Of a stretch of 64,000 nucleotides of DNA, positions 49,213-62,809 are shown in pieces (within the stretch, counting starts at the first letter, position 1; each line of letters opens with the position of its first letter). Origin of the DNA: Synechococcus sp. CS-1331 (GTDB lineage: Bacteria > Cyanobacteriota > Cyanobacteriia > PCC-6307 > Cyanobiaceae); contig JAHLYQ010000040.1 in NCBI GenBank assembly GCA_025127975.1, forward strand, positions 19,694-83,693. Reading direction: 5' to 3'. The position numbers and the translations under genes are program-made. The notes beneath the pieces were generated by a model that saw nothing but the letters and a program-made list of their open reading frames with translations, made no database searches and was not told the DNA's origin.

Positions 49213-50103
49213 TCACTTGCTCAGCTGACTGATTGCTAATTCCAGCACTAACCTGACACCAGGTTGTTCTTCCTGCTCCACACTTGCTTTTAAGGCAGGC
49301 AATGCATCCTTGGCCCCTAGCTTCATCAGCGATAGAGCGGCGTTTTTGCGGACCTGTTCTTCCGGGTCGGTGAGCAGCGGGAGCAGGCGCGGGCATGCCC
49401 ATTCGGGCTCTTGCAGCTTGCCCATCAGTGTTGCAGCTTCTGCCCTCACCTCGGAGTCCAGGTCATCCAGCGCGGTTAGAAGCAGCTGTCTCGCCTGGTC
49501 ATCCCCCAAAGCCTGGATCTGTTCGCCGAGAGCTGCTATAGCTGCCGCTCTTACCCTGGCATCAGGTGAGCTGGCTGCTTGGCGAAGTGCCTCGGGAGCC
49601 CTGGCGCCGATAAAAGCGATCCCCCAGCTGGCTAGCCCCTGCTGCATGGCTGAGGCTTCTGGATGAACCAGCACTGAGAGGAGTGGCTCGAGAGCCTGGT
49701 CGCCGACTGCGGCCATCGCTCCGACAGCTGATCCCTGCACCACGGGATCCGAATCTGAGAGCAGGGTTTCGAGTAAAACGGGCAAGGCAGAGGGATCTGC
49801 AATCAGGGTTAGAGTTTTCGCTGCAGCGCGGCGAACGGTGACGTTCTCGTGAGACCGCAATGCACGGCAGAGTGTTGGCACTGCTGCTGAACCCACTGCT
49901 CCAAGGCTTTCGGCAAAGGTGAGCCGCATTAAGCCTCTGGTATCGCCGAGCCCAGCAACCATGCGCTCAATTGCTGGGCTATCGGAGGCGGGAACTAGCC
50001 CCTGGCGAAGTTGGGAACGAAGCTCTGCAGCCAGAATGTTGGCTTCCTCCACGCTCAGTTGCTGGTTCCCAGATGCGGGGGCAGTGGACAACTCGGTAGA
50101 CAA
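49213..50103 (-). CDS. cpeF: CpeF (MpeV-type) phycoerythrin beta lyase/chaperone
   Basis: 296-residue HEAT-repeat lyase. The stretch GLMRLTFAESLGAVGSAAVP, then VTVRRAAAKTLTLIADPSAL and VVQGSAVGAMAAVGDQAL is, as I recall, characteristic of CpeF/MpeV, which joins the doubly linked bilin on Cys50/61 of PE beta. Repeats run from residue 45 to the end. It converges on cpeZ and diverges from the DUF2656 gene. Other E/F-clan members are a lesser alternative. Confidence 0.78.
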   Translation of the reverse strand: MSTELSTAPASGNQQLSVEEANILAAELRSQLRQGLVPASDSPAIERMVAGLGDTRGLMRLTFAESLGAVGSAAVPTLCRALRSHENVTVRRAAAKTLTLIADPSALPVLLETLLSDSDPVVQGSAVGAMAAVGDQALEPLLSVLVHPEASAMQQGLASWGIAFIGARAPEALRQAASSPDARVRAAAIAALGEQIQALGDDQARQLLLTALDDLDSEVRAEAATLMGKLQEPEWACPRLLPLLTDPEEQVRKNAALSLMKLGAKDALPALKASVEQEEQPGVRLVLELAISQLSK

Positions 50104-53321: not shown

Positions 53322-53867
53322 TTACTGTTCGCTGAAGGAATCTAATCGGCGGATTTCAGATGCGAAGGAGGTTTGCAGTATCCCTGAACCTGCTGAAGTT
53401 CGTAGCACTGACGAGCGGCAGCGTACATTCTCAGATACGAACCAGATCCTTTCCTCTGCAATGGATTGGCCGTATTGGGTACTTAATATAAAAGTGTCAT
53501 CTTCTAAAAATGTGTAGTTTGAGGCTGCCTGCTCGGCTTCTGCGTATCCAACACTTCGCAGCAAGATTCCCTTTCGATTATCAGTTGGTATTGGAACTAG
53601 AATGCATGATCCTGCTGTTATTGCGCTGGGGTCATCTGGTTCCCAGTCGCTTTCGGCATTCCATTCCATTCTAAATGGATTAACAGGTTTTGCATCGCGT
53701 ATTGTGCAATCCTTGAGTAGATTAAGAACCAATGGATCTTGGGGTTCAATTGACTCTATCAAGACTGAACTGCGAACATCCTCAAATTGCTGAAAAGCAA
53801 GAGAATGCCCACTTCGCATTGATCGCCAGCGGCCCAGGCTACGAGCTACAAAGGATTCCAGCTGCAT
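53322..53867 (-). CDS. cpeS: CpeS phycoerythrin beta-82 bilin lyase
   Basis: 181-residue S/U-clan lyase. The start MQLESFVARSLGRWRSMRSG followed by HSLAFQQFEDVRSS is typical CpeS; ILLRSVGYAEAEQAASNYTFL and EERIWFVSENVRCRSSVLR fit the barrel. CpeS attaches PEB to Cys82 of phycoerythrin beta. First gene of cpeS-cpeT-cpeR; 270 bases separate it from cpeE upstream. The paralog at 45.7 kb belongs to another subgroup. Confidence 0.92.
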   Translation of the reverse strand: MQLESFVARSLGRWRSMRSGHSLAFQQFEDVRSSVLIESIEPQDPLVLNLLKDCTIRDAKPVNPFRMEWNAESDWEPDDPSAITAGSCILVPIPTDNRKGILLRSVGYAEAEQAASNYTFLEDDTFILSTQYGQSIAEERIWFVSENVRCRSSVLRTSAGSGILQTSFASEIRRLDSFSEQ

Positions 53868-54137: not shown

Positions 54138-54878
54138 TTAGGATTCTGTCACTGAGGCAATGCTGCCCCCACGCCGATGGATTGATTGAATAACTGATGA
54201 GAGTGAGCTGTATGGCGCACTACTGGTCTGCACCACTCGCCGGTTTTGTCCAACAGGATTAGATGATGTCCATCGAATTGTATAACGCTGGCCATTGCGG
54301 TCTCCTGGCCCTGGAGTTCTTTGAGCAGCCCTGGGGCTTGAATTGGTGGCTATGCTAAACAGTAACTGTGATTGCTTATCACCATCAAAGCCTGCGAATC
54401 CAGAGGCTAATGCAAGTGTTCTGTTGTAAGTAATGTTCGAGTTGCCACCTATGCTTGTCGCTCCTCGATTATAGGGGACTGTATCAAAGCCGTAGATTTC
54501 TAGATATTCAGCTCCATATATATAGCTGTTGATTTCGGCTTCATATCCCTTTGTGGCCAGTATTTGAACATGCTCGCTCAGTTCAGCTTGATTTCGGGGA
54601 GCTCGACCTAAGAGATGCTTGAAGTTGAGCTCAACAAAACGATAGGGGCCATTTGCCTCAAAAAAGAGACGCCGATAGCTATCAGAAAGGGCCAGGGCAT
54701 TGATCAGCCCCTGCACTGTGAGATCGCCGTTGATGAACAGACTCTCGGCCGAGAGTGAGCGCTCATCATCAAAAAGGTGTGCATTGCCAAATACCTGGCG
54801 GTAGGCTGCCTTCAGCTGGGCTTGGGCTTCCGACTGGCGTAAATCCGAATCGGGACGGGCAAGAGTTTTGATATCCAT
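54138..54878 (-). CDS. cpeE: Phycoerythrin-associated rod linker CpeE
   Basis: 246 residues: PBS linker domain (residues 20-165: AAYRQVFGNAHLFDDERSLS, PYRFVELNFKHLLGRAP, GYEAEINSYIYGAEYLEIYG) and a C-terminal CpcD-like domain (from ~195, ending IQSIHRRGGSIASVTES). Joins phycoerythrin hexamers in the rod. Naming as CpeE follows its position and single-linker plus CpcD layout. Two further linkers lie upstream on the same strand. Confidence 0.85.
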   Translation of the reverse strand: MDIKTLARPDSDLRQSEAQAQLKAAYRQVFGNAHLFDDERSLSAESLFINGDLTVQGLINALALSDSYRRLFFEANGPYRFVELNFKHLLGRAPRNQAELSEHVQILATKGYEAEINSYIYGAEYLEIYGFDTVPYNRGATSIGGNSNITYNRTLALASGFAGFDGDKQSQLLFSIATNSSPRAAQRTPGPGDRNGQRYTIRWTSSNPVGQNRRVVQTSSAPYSSLSSVIQSIHRRGGSIASVTES

Positions 54879-56699: not shown

Positions 56700-57584
56700 T
56701 CAACTCAGGGGTGTGATGCTTGCGATCTTGCCACCCTCGCGGTGAATAAGTTGATACTGCTCTGATAGCTTGTTGAAGGGAACGAAGTATACTCTGTTAG
56801 ATTTTCTATAGCGTGATGTGGGGCGCACATTGTTGGCTCTATAGCCTGTCACCTCAACTCGATAGACTTTGCCTGTTTCGCCTGCGAGTACACCTATCCG
56901 TGTAACGGGATCTGTCAGGTTGGCGGCTGGGCGGAAGCTCCAGCCTTGGGAATCTTGTGATGAGGGAGCTACCACTGGAAGAGGGCGGTTCTGATAAGCA
57001 GCACCACCAAGACGGCTCCTGATTCCAGCTAGGTTGCCCTTTAGGCTGCTGCTGCTGTTTCCACGCAGCAACTGGAATGACCAGGTGAACTCTTGGAGCG
57101 TTGTACAGGATTCCGTTTTCCAACCACGCTGATATGGAACTGTCCACTCACCAAAGGTGTTCTGATACTCGTCAGAATTTAAGAAGCTGTCGATGTCTGC
57201 TTCGTAACCACTTGTATCTAGTCGTTCGGCATGGCCACGCATTTCCTCAAAGTCTGCTGGGGCACGTCCGAGTAGGTGGCGAAATGCTAGTTCGATATAG
57301 CGGTAGCGCGCACATGAGTCAAAAAAGCGGGTGCTGTATAGATCGCTTTTGGCGATGCGTCGTACCAGTTCTCTAACGCTGATCTCGCCAAGCTTGAATT
57401 GCGATTCTGCAACTACTTGTCTTTCGCTTTCCATTACGTAGGCATTCCCAAGCACCTGTCTATAAACTGCTCGGACTATTTCCTCTTTTGATTGGTCGTC
57501 GTCTCCCGGAACTAGCTCTCGTGGTGCCTCGCATTCTTGCGAGAAGCTTTCCACACCCAGGATGGAGGCGGGGCCAAAGGGCAT
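56700..57584 (-). CDS. cpeC: Phycoerythrin-associated rod linker CpeC
   Basis: 294 residues: linker domain (about 30-180: VYRQVLGNAYVMESERQVVA, RYRYIELAFRHLLGRAP, IDSFLNSDEYQNTFGEWTVP), a Gly/Ser-rich middle, and a C-terminal CpcD-like domain (VYRVEVTGYR ... IHREGGKIASITPLS). CpeC links the PC-proximal PE hexamer. The ATG at 57584 (MPFGPASILG) is preferred to an upstream in-frame start. Linker order on the strand: CpeC, double linker, CpeE. Confidence 0.86.
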   Translation of the reverse strand: MPFGPASILGVESFSQECEAPRELVPGDDDQSKEEIVRAVYRQVLGNAYVMESERQVVAESQFKLGEISVRELVRRIAKSDLYSTRFFDSCARYRYIELAFRHLLGRAPADFEEMRGHAERLDTSGYEADIDSFLNSDEYQNTFGEWTVPYQRGWKTESCTTLQEFTWSFQLLRGNSSSSLKGNLAGIRSRLGGAAYQNRPLPVVAPSSQDSQGWSFRPAANLTDPVTRIGVLAGETGKVYRVEVTGYRANNVRPTSRYRKSNRVYFVPFNKLSEQYQLIHREGGKIASITPLS

Positions 57585-57700
57585 GGCTGAAACTGCAATA
57601 CTCCCCAATTATCCCTGTCTTTTATTTCCCTTTCCCGGCAGCTTGACAAAGCTCAATCTTTTGTTTCAATGACTACGCTTTTTCTGCCAGTGCCAGCGCG

Positions 57701-58432
57701 CTAACCGGGCTGCATTGTCGATTCCAGCAGCGATTCCAGTGTCGCCCGGGTCGCTTGCCTAGTGAGTGGGTTCCAGCAATCCAGTTCGATGTGCGAGCGA
57801 GTTAGGAGATTTGCTAGCTGTATCTTGTCCATACCCGTAGCCTGACTGAAGTCAGCACCCTGTATACTTTCCGACCCTTCCAGGATTGCCTCTGTTAAAT
57901 CAGCAGCCCTAAAGTCAGCTTGCTGCAACTGACTGCCGTTAAAGCGTGTGCCCACGCAGCGACAGCCTTGCATCTTCGCAAACCTTAAGTCGGCACCTAC
58001 AAAACGTGCCCCGTCCAATATTGCACCACTTAGGTCACACCCGCTTAGGTAGGCACCCATAAAGTTGGTGTTTCGAAGGTCCATACCCCGGAGATCTGCA
58101 CCATTTAAAAAAGCCCCATTAAGGGCTGCTCCTGGACCCACTGCTCCTGACTTTTCCAGATTAAAACCAACGGGTACGCGAGTCTTTTTATCATAACGGG
58201 CAAGTGTTAAATTGCATCCTTCTAGTTGGCAGGCAGTTAGGTCTGTGCCTCTTATGTCCGTACGACATAGGTTTGCATTCCGTAGATCAAGTGGCTGGAG
58301 AATACGGTTGACCCAATTGGCCCCTCGCGCGTCTATGGGTAGATGCTGTGATGAAACAGGTTTGCAATCTTCAGGAGCCCTCCATTGGCTGGGGTCTTCG
58401 GGTAACAAGCAGGCTTGGTGCTTATGATTCAT
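57701..58432 (-). CDS. Pentapeptide-repeat protein of rod region
   Basis: 243 residues with A(D/N)LxX pentapeptide repeats over residues ~45-200 (LRNANLCRTDIRGTDLTACQ, NGADLRGMDLRNTNFMGAYL, QQADFRAADLTEAILEG), forming a quadrilateral beta-helix. Interrupted once by a KKTRVPVGFNL loop. The C terminus is helical (MDKIQLANLLTRSHIELDCW). Similar unknown proteins occur in Synechococcus rod gene clusters. Function unknown; scaffold or assembly role is inferred from context only. Confidence 0.75.
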   Translation of the reverse strand: MNHKHQACLLPEDPSQWRAPEDCKPVSSQHLPIDARGANWVNRILQPLDLRNANLCRTDIRGTDLTACQLEGCNLTLARYDKKTRVPVGFNLEKSGAVGPGAALNGAFLNGADLRGMDLRNTNFMGAYLSGCDLSGAILDGARFVGADLRFAKMQGCRCVGTRFNGSQLQQADFRAADLTEAILEGSESIQGADFSQATGMDKIQLANLLTRSHIELDCWNPLTRQATRATLESLLESTMQPG

Positions 58433-58516: not shown

Positions 58517-59125
58517 TCAGCTTTTTGGCATTAGTGAATCGCTTGGTTGCAGGGCGTTAACTAGGTTATCGAAGGCCCTGTTTAGGCAGTCTATCTCGCG
58601 AAGATGTCCAGAAGCTTCAAGGATAAGTGTAGTCAGTTTACGCATTTGGGCTAAAGCGTACATCATCGCTGGAACTGGTACTTTCATTTCTTTGTATAAT
58701 AACCGCAATGCAGCCATTCCGGCGGTGTCTGTTATCTCTGCGCAATCGCATGCCACTCCGTAGATGACTACTCGTAGAAATTGTTGGCAATCTCGCCAGC
58801 AGGCTTCTGCTCTTTTCTCCGGGTATAGCTCTCCGCCTGGCAGTATCAGATTAGGTTGATGGTCTAGCAATTTTCGCCTTGCCGCATCAGTTACATTGAT
58901 CGACTCAGTAATCAGTAGGCTTACGGCATGTTCTGAGGTATTGCAACAGGCGCATACCTTTCTCAATTCATCGACGTTTAGGGGCTGTTTTAAAGTATCT
59001 GCATTTGCTATCAACCCTCTCGCTGCACTGGGGAGGCTTCTGCGTTTGGTTATGCCGCATACTTGTGCTGCCTTGGCAAGTTCGCTTATTTTCAGTTGTC
59101 GCTGAGCTTCTATAGTCAGGTTCAC
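58517..59125 (-). CDS. Divergent phycobiliprotein-like protein with conserved bilin cysteine
   Basis: 202 residues. Residues 66-190 align along the phycobiliprotein fold: AVSLLITESINVTDAAR matches the [16 protein letters not shown] helix of CpeB, PNLILPGGELYPEKRAEACW then RDCQQFLRVVIYG matches [17 protein letters not shown], and MAALRLLYKEMKVPVPAM matches [14 protein letters not shown]. Cys109 aligns with the chromophore Cys82, and Arg111 and Asp112 are also kept. The first 65 residues differ from CpcB/CpeB and have extra cysteines (VCACC). It is ATGA-coupled to the 138-residue gene. Chromophore and role unknown; AT-rich codon use. Confidence 0.6.
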   Translation of the reverse strand: MNLTIEAQRQLKISELAKAAQVCGITKRRSLPSAARGLIANADTLKQPLNVDELRKVCACCNTSEHAVSLLITESINVTDAARRKLLDHQPNLILPGGELYPEKRAEACWRDCQQFLRVVIYGVACDCAEITDTAGMAALRLLYKEMKVPVPAMMYALAQMRKLTTLILEASGHLREIDCLNRAFDNLVNALQPSDSLMPKS

Positions 59126-59538
59126 GATCCCACAGGAGTAGCAGTAAGCCAGCCATGCCTCTCCAAATGGAACGCCCAGATGGTTGCCCCGCCTAGGCCT
59201 GGGCAGTGTTCCGATGCCAGATTAACAAGCTGTTCAGACACACCGAGACTTTTGAGCAGATCTTTTGCTTCGGCCGATCCTTCAACCAGTGCAGAACGTA
59301 TTGCTGCTCCAACTACCCAGGTCAGATTTGTTTTTGACAGTTCACCGCCATTACTCTCGCATGCAAGCAGAAGATTGCTGCAGCCAGGATGTTTGGCGCG
59401 ATGGGATTTCCAAAGGTCAATGTCGTCTATTCTCAGGTCTATTCGCAAGCGGGCCTCGCCTGTTCCGTACTGAAGCTCCTGCTCCTCTCCGGCTTGTTTA
59501 ATCAGGTCTTTTATGCTTAAAACTTCTTCGTGCAACAT
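59122..59538 (-). CDS. Hypothetical protein coupled to the phycobiliprotein-like gene
   Basis: 138 residues, starting MLHEEVLSIKDLIKQAG. Sequence alternates short strands and helices (LRIDLRIDDIDLWKSHRAKH, CSNLLLACESNGGELSKTNL, WVVGAAIRSALVEGS) with a conserved-looking HCPGLGGATIWAFHLERHGW end. I recognise no family. It is the first gene of the minus-strand run and shares an ATGA overlap with the next gene, so the two proteins are likely made together. Confidence 0.6.
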   Translation of the reverse strand: MLHEEVLSIKDLIKQAGEEQELQYGTGEARLRIDLRIDDIDLWKSHRAKHPGCSNLLLACESNGGELSKTNLTWVVGAAIRSALVEGSAEAKDLLKSLGVSEQLVNLASEHCPGLGGATIWAFHLERHGWLTATPVGS

Positions 59539-59680: not shown

Positions 59681-59710
59681 AAAAAGAGCACCCCCGCCAA
59701 TGGGGATGCT
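59681..59710 (-). terminator. Rho-independent terminator of cpcBA
   Basis: On the minus strand AGCATCCCC/GGGGGTGCT (one T-G pair) with loop ATTGGC, then CTTTTT, 28 bases after the cpcA stop. It separates cpcBA from the unknown gene at 59.5 kb. Confidence 0.9.
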
Positions 59711-59738: not shown

Positions 59739-60227
59739 TCAAACAAGCGCGTTGATTGCGTAATCGAGATAATTGTTTGCTTCTGTCGATGCTTCGCCGG
59801 CAAGGCCATGGTTTGCCTTGATATAGTTAAGAGCTTCCACGTACCAAGAGGGGGAGAGCTCAAAAGCGCGATTGATCTCATCAATTCCGGCAATCAGGTA
59901 CTCATCCATGGGGCCGGTCCCACCAGCTACGAGGCAGTAGGTGACCATGCGGAGGTAGTAACCGATGTCACGGGAGCACTTTGCCTTGCCGCGGGCGTCA
60001 GCGGCATAGTTTGCACCCTGCATCTGGGTGGTGTAGGGGAACTTATTGTAAACGGCTTGGGCGGCTCCGTTTACTAGGTTGTCTGCGTTCGCTGTCAGGC
60101 CCTTAGCCGCTGCAAGAGCATTTTTGGCGCGGTCAAAGCGACCAAAAGCAGAGTTGAGTTCAGTATTGGAGAGGAAGCGACCCTGGGAATCAGCGGTGGC
60201 GACGGCTTCGGTAAGGGGAGTCTTCAT
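59739..60227 (-). CDS. cpcA: Phycocyanin alpha subunit
   Basis: 162-residue PC alpha chain with a single bilin cysteine, Cys84 in [14 protein letters not shown], the target of CpcE/CpcF (38.4-39.9 kb). Typical features: SRFLSNTE-like start region, [39 protein letters not shown], and C-terminal [11 protein letters not shown]. Codon choice differs from neighbours in the AT-rich block. Follows cpcB after 42 bases. Confidence 0.96.
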
Positions 60228-60269: not shown

Positions 60270-60788
60270 TCAGCCGACGGCTGCCGCAGCGCGGTCGAAG
60301 TAGGTGCCGATTTCGCTGATTAAAGCTGAGCAGTCCCCTTGGGTGATGCCGTTGCGGTCGTTGGCAATTGCAATGGCGGCGGCCTTCATTTTGCGAACGC
60401 CTTCAGCAACGGAAGCGCCAGGCACGCCGAGGGCCAGGTAGGTTTCCCGAAGGCCGTTGAGGCAGCGGTCTTCCAGTACGGATGCATCGCCGTTGAAAAC
60501 GGCGTAGGTGATGTAACGGAGAATGATGTCCATGTCGCGCAGGCACGCAGCCATGCGGCGGCTGGTGTAGGCGTTCCCTCCAGGAGCTGTAAGCGCCGGC
60601 TGAGCCTCAAAAAGATCGCGCGCCGCATTGGTAACGATCTTTGAAGCGTTTGAGGTGATGCGGTTCACAGCATCCATACGCTTGTTGCTCTCGGCAACCA
60701 TCGCGGCAAGCGCGTCGATCTGACCGGCGTTGATGAATTCGCCACGGGCGTCGGCCTGGGCTACAACCTTGGTGAAGGCGTCGAACAT
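60270..60788 (-). CDS. cpcB: Phycocyanin beta subunit
   Basis: 172-residue PC beta chain starting [18 protein letters not shown]. Bilin cysteines Cys82 ([11 protein letters not shown]) and Cys153 ([10 protein letters not shown]) are present, as in C-PC. The Asn72-type residue precedes ([10 protein letters not shown]). The frame extends upstream to 60917 but without family support; an AGGAG-like RBS precedes the ATG at 60788. First gene of cpcBA; a terminator for the upstream CpcD-like gene lies at 60998. Confidence 0.96.
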
Positions 60789-62203: not shown

Positions 62204-62809
62204 TCAGCGCCCCAGTTGGTCTGCCCAGCTGGACGGGATCTCGTTGCTGTAGTCGTCGGTGCGGGCGAATTCAAATGGCCCCGCCAGGGATCCCCAAAGA
62301 TGTTCATGGGTTTGGGGGTCGTGGCCTCGGTCAATGGTGCGCATGCCTGTGGGATTCAGTTCCAGCCGGCTGACCAGATAGGAGGTGGCACCTTTGCGTT
62401 CCACCAGGCAGCGGCAGCCTGGCTCCACTTCGCCAATGAAACCTTCGCCCTCTTCTTGCACCAGATAGGCACAGCCCTGCAGCGGCCGCAGGTCGGAGGC
62501 CTGAATCTGACTGCGGCGTTCGGGGTCGTCGACCGCGCCCCAGAAGCGCTGGTCGTCTATCAGGGCCTGGTTGTGAATGATCAATTGGCCGGCCTGGCGC
62601 TCCGCCCGCAGCACCCGGATCCGATAGGGCGCAGCCGGGTTGATCGCGTAACTCTGCTCGAGCAGCAGGGAACCTGGCTCCAACTGGGATAAGGGGCGGA
62701 ACTTGACCAGGATGTGGGCGTAGAGGGGCGGATTCTCAAAGGCCTGATCCTGGTTGCTGAAGCCGCCGCTCAGCATCCGTACCAATCGCTCCAGGGAGCT
62801 CTCCATCAC
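62204..62809 (-). CDS. cpcT: CpcT-type bilin lyase
   Basis: 201 residues of the CpcT/CpeT family. Motifs: LVRMLSGGFSNQDQAFENPP near the start, LYAHILVKFRPLSQLEPGSL, LLEQSYAINPAAPYRIRVLR, and GCAYLVQEEGEGFIGEVEPG. CpcT attaches PCB to Cys153 of phycocyanin beta. Compared with CpeT at 52.7 kb it lacks the HFHET segment. Nearness to cpcBA supports the PC assignment. Confidence 0.84.
   Translation of the reverse strand: MMESSLERLVRMLSGGFSNQDQAFENPPLYAHILVKFRPLSQLEPGSLLLEQSYAINPAAPYRIRVLRAERQAGQLIIHNQALIDDQRFWGAVDDPERRSQIQASDLRPLQGCAYLVQEEGEGFIGEVEPGCRCLVERKGATSYLVSRLELNPTGMRTIDRGHDPQTHEHLWGSLAGPFEFARTDDYSNEIPSSWADQLGR

Follow-up and report, generated by a model that had tools for sequence, protein, structure and literature searches.

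An AplA phycobiliprotein gene beside the phycocyanin genes of Synechococcus sp. CS-1331 and its association with phycoerythrin

The 64,000-nucleotide stretch of Synechococcus sp. CS-1331 DNA analysed here (the window) encodes a 202-amino-acid protein that is almost certainly AplA. We propose, with a probability of about 0.6, that AplA, which stands apart from the antenna subunits of alpha and beta type, is a free-standing bilin protein belonging to the phycoerythrin module. AplA is already known both as a kind of protein and at this genomic place, and the window protein is an ordinary member of the known family; it has been named, yet the accessible text of the literature cited here assigns it no role.

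The aplA gene and its reading frame

58517–59125, minus strand: aplA, 202 amino acids, GTG start at 59125; PF00502 97.1 bits, Apl clade support 100/99, model pLDDT 83.1
58799–58801, minus strand: codon of Cys109, the chromophore-site cysteine, present in 27/27 Apl rows and 9/9 subunits
58787–58789, minus strand: codon of Cys113, a second cysteine four residues past Cys109, present in 19/20 loci of the family and 2/40 outside it

The minus-strand frame from 59125 to 58517 was uninterrupted over 202 codons, and the same frame on the plus strand was riddled with stops. The start of aplA and the stop of the preceding gene, unk4 (59122–59538), share the four bases GTGA. No match turned up among 50,697 phage records (cut-off E 1e-5), so a phage-carried aplA was rejected.

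Comparison with the phycobilisome subunits

The earlier note had assigned residues 66–190 to the phycobiliprotein fold. The fold was borne out by a match to PF00502 far beyond chance (97.1 bits against a gathering cut-off of 22.2, E = 1.3e-27), but this match covered residues 38–192, so that the domain begins at residue 38 and not at 66. Up to E = 1, Pfam gave PF00502 and nothing else; the GAF domain of the dual-cysteine cyanobacteriochromes was absent.

The NCBI model of ApcA scored best against AplA (60 bits), followed by ApcB (54), CpcB (54), CpeB (42) and CpeA (28). All five were far under their cut-offs (225–279 bits; 270 for ApcA), and the comparison extends to these five models, that of CpcA not being among the matches listed. 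Sequence matches in the PDB were headed by allophycocyanin alpha types, the top one being of the ApcD type.

An alignment of 36 rows was made from 27 Apl proteins and nine phycobilisome subunits, eight of the latter from the same genome and one, ApcD, from elsewhere. It drew on 28 loci (L004–L031), among which L004 is the aplA of the window and L031 the ApcD row; L032 and L033 were unused. L020 (two stops), the Apl matches L023 and L025, and L030 were dropped, L008 and L012 were omitted because their genes are those of L001 and L003, L013 and L014 entered in trimmed form, and L016 was retained without an assigned start. In the resulting tree, which was unrooted and does not place Apl inside the subunits, a branch supported at 100/99 parted the 27 Apl rows from the nine subunits. 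The subunit scores and the tree confirm that the protein is neither the alpha nor the beta type of phycoerythrin, phycocyanin or allophycocyanin. A new type of antenna subunit was likewise ruled out by the sub-cut-off scores and the separate branch.

AplA resembles ApcA and ApcD in that ApcA is its best subunit model, an ApcD type tops its PDB matches and the C-x-R-D site is common to them; it differs from both in lying far under the cut-off, in the Trp that follows the Cys, in its extra N-terminus and in its separate branch. At residue 48 the Apl rows of the family lack the Tyr of ApcA, ApcB, ApcD and ApcF, as do the phycocyanin and phycoerythrin subunits; Tyr was present in 9 of the 10 other Apl rows. 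Asp43, Arg118 and Tyr122, which are said to be alpha-beta contact positions, matched the subunit residues in almost every Apl row. The founding set of AplA proteins reportedly has substitutions at alpha-beta contact positions, together with an N-terminal extension of 28 amino acids relative to allophycocyanin.

N-terminus and predicted structure

Residue 38 of AplA aligned with position 7 of the ApcA model, which gives approximately 31 extra N-terminal residues. The first ~65 residues had been described as different; only about 31 are extra, and the domain starts at residue 38. Within the extension L16 was found in 27/27 and A20 in 26/27 Apl rows.

An AlphaFold2 model of AplA built from four sequences reached a pLDDT of 83.1 and a pTM of 0.80, with two of the five models below 67. 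A Foldseek search with this model ranked allophycocyanin first (E = 2e-5), and 6hrk_A superposed at 2.9 Å over 130 columns (TM 0.82 of the 6hrk_A length). The predicted structure thus matches the globin-like phycobiliprotein core, as the earlier note had supposed. 6hrk_A is a far-red fluorescent biliprotein derived from an allophycocyanin F subunit; it is a derived protein of 135 residues, whereas AplA is natural, has 202 residues and bears N-terminal helices. Full-length subunits superposed on the AplA model at approximately 9 Å only (49 of 50 among the matches listed, at 8.7–9.7 Å). The model therefore shows the same core as in phycobiliproteins and, a weaker point since it was built from four sequences, N-terminal helices that are placed otherwise.

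The chromophore site

Cys109, Arg111 and Asp112 aligned with the chromophore C-x-R-D of 9/9 phycobilisome subunits. The earlier note had placed a Cys-x-Arg-x(1)-Asp motif here; its alignment with the subunit site held, but the x(1) spacing was wrong because the Arg and the Asp are adjacent. Cys109, Trp110, Asp112, Phe116, Arg118 and Tyr122 were invariant in 27/27 Apl rows and Arg111 was present in 26/27. None of the nine subunits had an equivalent of Trp110. Flanking regions were also inspected at 60 chosen loci, of which 20 came from the 31 Apl genomes of the family and 40 from the 82 elsewhere. All 60 kept Cys109; the exceptions at the neighbouring positions were Leu for Trp110 in L088 and Asn for Arg111 in L100. 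The earlier description was of a phycobiliprotein that has diverged but retains its chromophore cysteine, and the conservation of Cys109 among orthologues, in every Apl row and every chosen locus, sustains it. A bilin is quite probably bound covalently to Cys109.

Genetic context in the window

59122–59538, minus strand: unk4, conserved protein of 138 amino acids, function unknown; without a Pfam family (E up to 1)
59687–59710, minus strand: terminator-like hairpin between cpcA and unk4, a 9-pair stem and T tail; pattern match only
59739–60227, minus strand: cpcA, phycocyanin alpha; TIGR01338 294 bits, cut-off 269
60270–60788, minus strand: cpcB, phycocyanin beta; TIGR01339 316 bits, cut-off 279
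57701–58432, minus strand: unk5, pentapeptide-repeat protein; PF00805 97 bits; present in 20/20 loci of the family
56700–57608, minus strand: phycobilisome rod linker; PF00427 and PF01383
54950–56566, minus strand: phycobilisome linker; two PF00427 domains
54138–54878, minus strand: phycobilisome rod linker; PF00427 and PF01383
53322–53867, minus strand: CpeS-type bilin lyase; PF09367 190.6 bits
52678–53316, minus strand: CpeT-type bilin lyase; PF06206 193.8 bits
47363–48477, plus strand: cpeB and cpeA, phycoerythrin subunits; 68% and 73% identity to PCC 8801 plasmid genes
44195–45678, minus strand: pebA and pebB, phycoerythrobilin synthesis; 40% and 49% identity to PCC 8801 plasmid genes

The gene order of the window is cpcBA-unk4-aplA, as known for aplA. 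This order is in print for the Type IIB pigment clusters of picocyanobacteria (PMC6363710, PMC4139726, each in its accessible text); there, PMC6363710 already names aplA at this place and PMC4139726 gives the order cpcA-unk4 as unique to Type IIB, so the gene is the known AplA at its known place. The legend of a cluster figure that includes Type IIB, in the available portion of PMC6776005, names AplA as well. The name unk4 appears in the accessible text of PMC2246261 and PMC4139726, and the former defines unk4 as the gene upstream of aplA and unk5 by its pentapeptide repeats.

The window protein shares with the AplA of Fremyella diplosiphon and of marine and Type IIB Synechococcus the chromophore residues, the N-terminal extension and an upstream unk4. 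Among the subunit models it is nearest to allophycocyanin; the comparison with the F. diplosiphon protein itself was by description only.

Beside aplA, unk4 adjoined it in 19/20 loci of the family and was 70–78% identical in L001–L003; its structure prediction had a pLDDT of 41.7 and the model was unused. The hairpin between cpcA and unk4 is no more than a hint that transcription of unk4 and aplA may be separate from that of cpcBA; shuffled sequences gave 5.7 such terminator-like patterns on average, compared with the 11 found.

The gene had been described as lying in a run of phycoerythrin linkers. Phycobilisome linker genes do lie downstream, but the pair just upstream is phycocyanin cpcBA, and cpeBA lies at 47.4–48.5 kb. 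The CpeS-type lyase at 53322–53867 is a candidate lyase for AplA; another CpeS-type gene is located at 45.7–46.3 kb. A second CpeT/CpcT-like gene (62204–62809, minus strand; 36% to PCC 8801 CpeT) was present near cpcBA. Near cpeBA, a gene at 49213–50103 on the minus strand encodes a HEAT-repeat protein whose repeats are of the PBS-lyase kind (PF03130); we take this protein to be possibly a lyase of the CpeF/MpeV type.

aplA loci in other genomes

Outside the family, the 40 chosen loci included relatives of a HEAT-repeat protein of PCC 7424 in 26 cases, a CpeS-type gene in 20, a pentapeptide-repeat gene in 19, and each of PebA and PebB in 13. The HEAT gene was the closest upstream match, on the opposite strand, in 19/40 of these loci (L049–L088). 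The HEAT protein matched PF03130, "PBS lyase HEAT-like repeat", with 31.4 bits against a cut-off of 20.9, and is for this reason a candidate lyase or partner of Apl. In PCC 8801 pebA, pebB and the Apl gene were consecutive on one strand.

In Pseudanabaena PCC 7367, Gloeothece PCC 7424 and Rippkaea PCC 8801 (L045, L046, L047), plasmids carried phycoerythrin gene sets together with an Apl gene. Such plasmid sets are a possible route of transfer for the whole module.

Co-occurrence with phycoerythrin

A search of 388 genomes of the class, for which a completeness of at least 90% was requested, found Apl in 113 and CpeB in 123; both were present in 101 genomes, Apl alone in 12, CpeB alone in 22 and neither in 253. 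The association had a Fisher p of 1.1e-56, a statistic that ignores kinship. Both cuts were chosen after viewing the data, that for Apl at a gap in the E values (2.4e-38 to 1.7e-33) and that for CpeB below 1e-80 (123 is also the count over the search cut-off), and the Apl profile was partly built from the same genomes as were counted. Co-occurrence of Apl and CpeB across cyanobacteria was found in no report of the literature searched, which covered few subscription journals and is weak evidence of absence.

Within one genus of 24 genomes (g80), a hand count gave 11 with both, 13 with neither and none discordant, and hence Apl and CpeB vary together within a single genus. Among the 22 genomes with CpeB alone, 15 had sizes of 1.7–2.6 Mb and a single phycobiliprotein match in either search, and these are probably Prochlorococcus; the other seven, which include G014 of the same genus as the window, count against a strict rule. 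The 12 genomes with Apl alone, which count against it too, comprised G082 (7 contigs), G101 (1 contig) and ten drafts of 40–850 contigs. The accessible text of PMC2246261 describes aplA in all its PEII-containing marine strains and its absence from the PE-containing strain WH7805.

Apl and CpeB lay within 30 kb of each other in 31/31 genomes of the same family and in at least 30 of 70 others, the latter being a lower bound because one CpeB place per genome was used in scoring. In the remaining 40 of the 70 the two were farther apart on one contig (11) or on different contigs (26), or no CpeB place was listed (3). The association raises the question whether loss of aplA alters phycoerythrin.

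Possible role of AplA

In the role proposed here, within the phycoerythrin module but standing alone, AplA would carry its bilin covalently on Cys109, where a lyase from the same cluster, of the CpeS/CpcS or HEAT type, would have attached it. AplA would remain outside the phycobilisome and would serve the making of phycoerythrin, carrying or reporting bilin during its synthesis. For such a part in phycoerythrin biogenesis, rather than in light sensing, the odds seem to us a little short of even.

Somewhat behind it, though a serious contender, is a light sensor whose Cys109 bilin would be light-responsive and whose signal would pass to an unlinked partner. The accessible text of PMC2246261 assigns the AplA of F. 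diplosiphon to a novel photosensor class whose function is unknown, and the conserved chromophore site fits a sensor too; a covalent bilin on AplA is predicted by both roles. AplA is, however, a single domain for which Pfam found no output module. Its neighbours also point weakly away from a sensor, being phycoerythrin-making genes among the kinds of gene that were queried.

That AplA is a minor structural component of phycobilisome rods or cores is improbable. In favour one could cite its phycobiliprotein fold, the linker genes that adjoin aplA and the agreement of residues 43, 118 and 122 with the subunit residues in almost every Apl row. Its scores far under the subunit cut-offs and its N-terminal extension argue otherwise, as does, weakly given a four-sequence model, the superposition of full-length subunits at ~9 Å only. 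AplA is moreover said not to have been found in phycobilisomes: a paper of 2004 reportedly described a bound chromophore and the absence of AplA from these complexes, and on the strength of that report the suggestion of a minor rod pigment is disfavoured.

The divergent sequence and the internal stops in two distant matches (L020, G136) might be read as a functionless, decaying paralogue of an antenna subunit, which is highly improbable with residues invariant over 27 rows and dN lower than dS in all five aplA pairs tested (0.21 to 0.92, 0.21 to 0.82, 0.22 to 0.76, 0.05 to 0.13 and 0.02 to 0.04). The contrast was least clear for the two closest pairs; purifying selection acts on aplA in the five pairs.

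A second cysteine in the family

Cys113 stands next to Asp112, one helical turn past Cys109. Among the 20 loci of the family the site motif was CWRDC in 18, CWNDC in one and CWRDL in one, whereas at the 40 loci outside it the residue after C-x-x-D was Phe in 34, Cys in 2, Leu in 3 and Tyr in 1. The aligned rows agreed, with Cys at position 113 in 15/17 rows of the family versus 1/10 of the others. The genomes G082 and G101 (L083, L084), which are of one family, 2.7–2.8 Mb in size and without CpeB over the cut, carried an Apl with CWRDC, a case of Apl in the absence of phycoerythrin.

The family-wide presence of Cys113 by the chromophore site raises the question of its contact with the bilin. 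On a tentative and rather unlikely reading, AplA would be a component devoted to phycoerythrin production in cyanobacteria and its picocyanobacterial form a two-cysteine bilin protein, in which Cys113 would provide a second, perhaps reversible, bilin bond or a redox switch. A two-cysteine AplA would, if true, be the phycobiliprotein-fold counterpart of the dual-cysteine cyanobacteriochromes, whose GAF domain is absent here. No report on Cys113 was found in the literature searched, in which few subscription journals were covered, and this is weak evidence of absence.

Cysteines were counted over the 27 Apl rows and the nine subunits. The VCACC sequence noted earlier in the N-terminal part was rejected as a conserved motif, C58 being present in 15, C60 in only 4 and C61 in 10 of the 27 Apl rows; the clade of the window protein has instead [VI]CxxC at 58–61, with C58 and C61 in 9/9 rows. 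This clade, set apart from most Apl outside the family by Cys113 in place of Phe, is also rich in cysteine overall, with 7–10 per protein (9 rows) versus 2–4 in 9 of the 10 Apl rows outside the family, the exception being L022 with 6.
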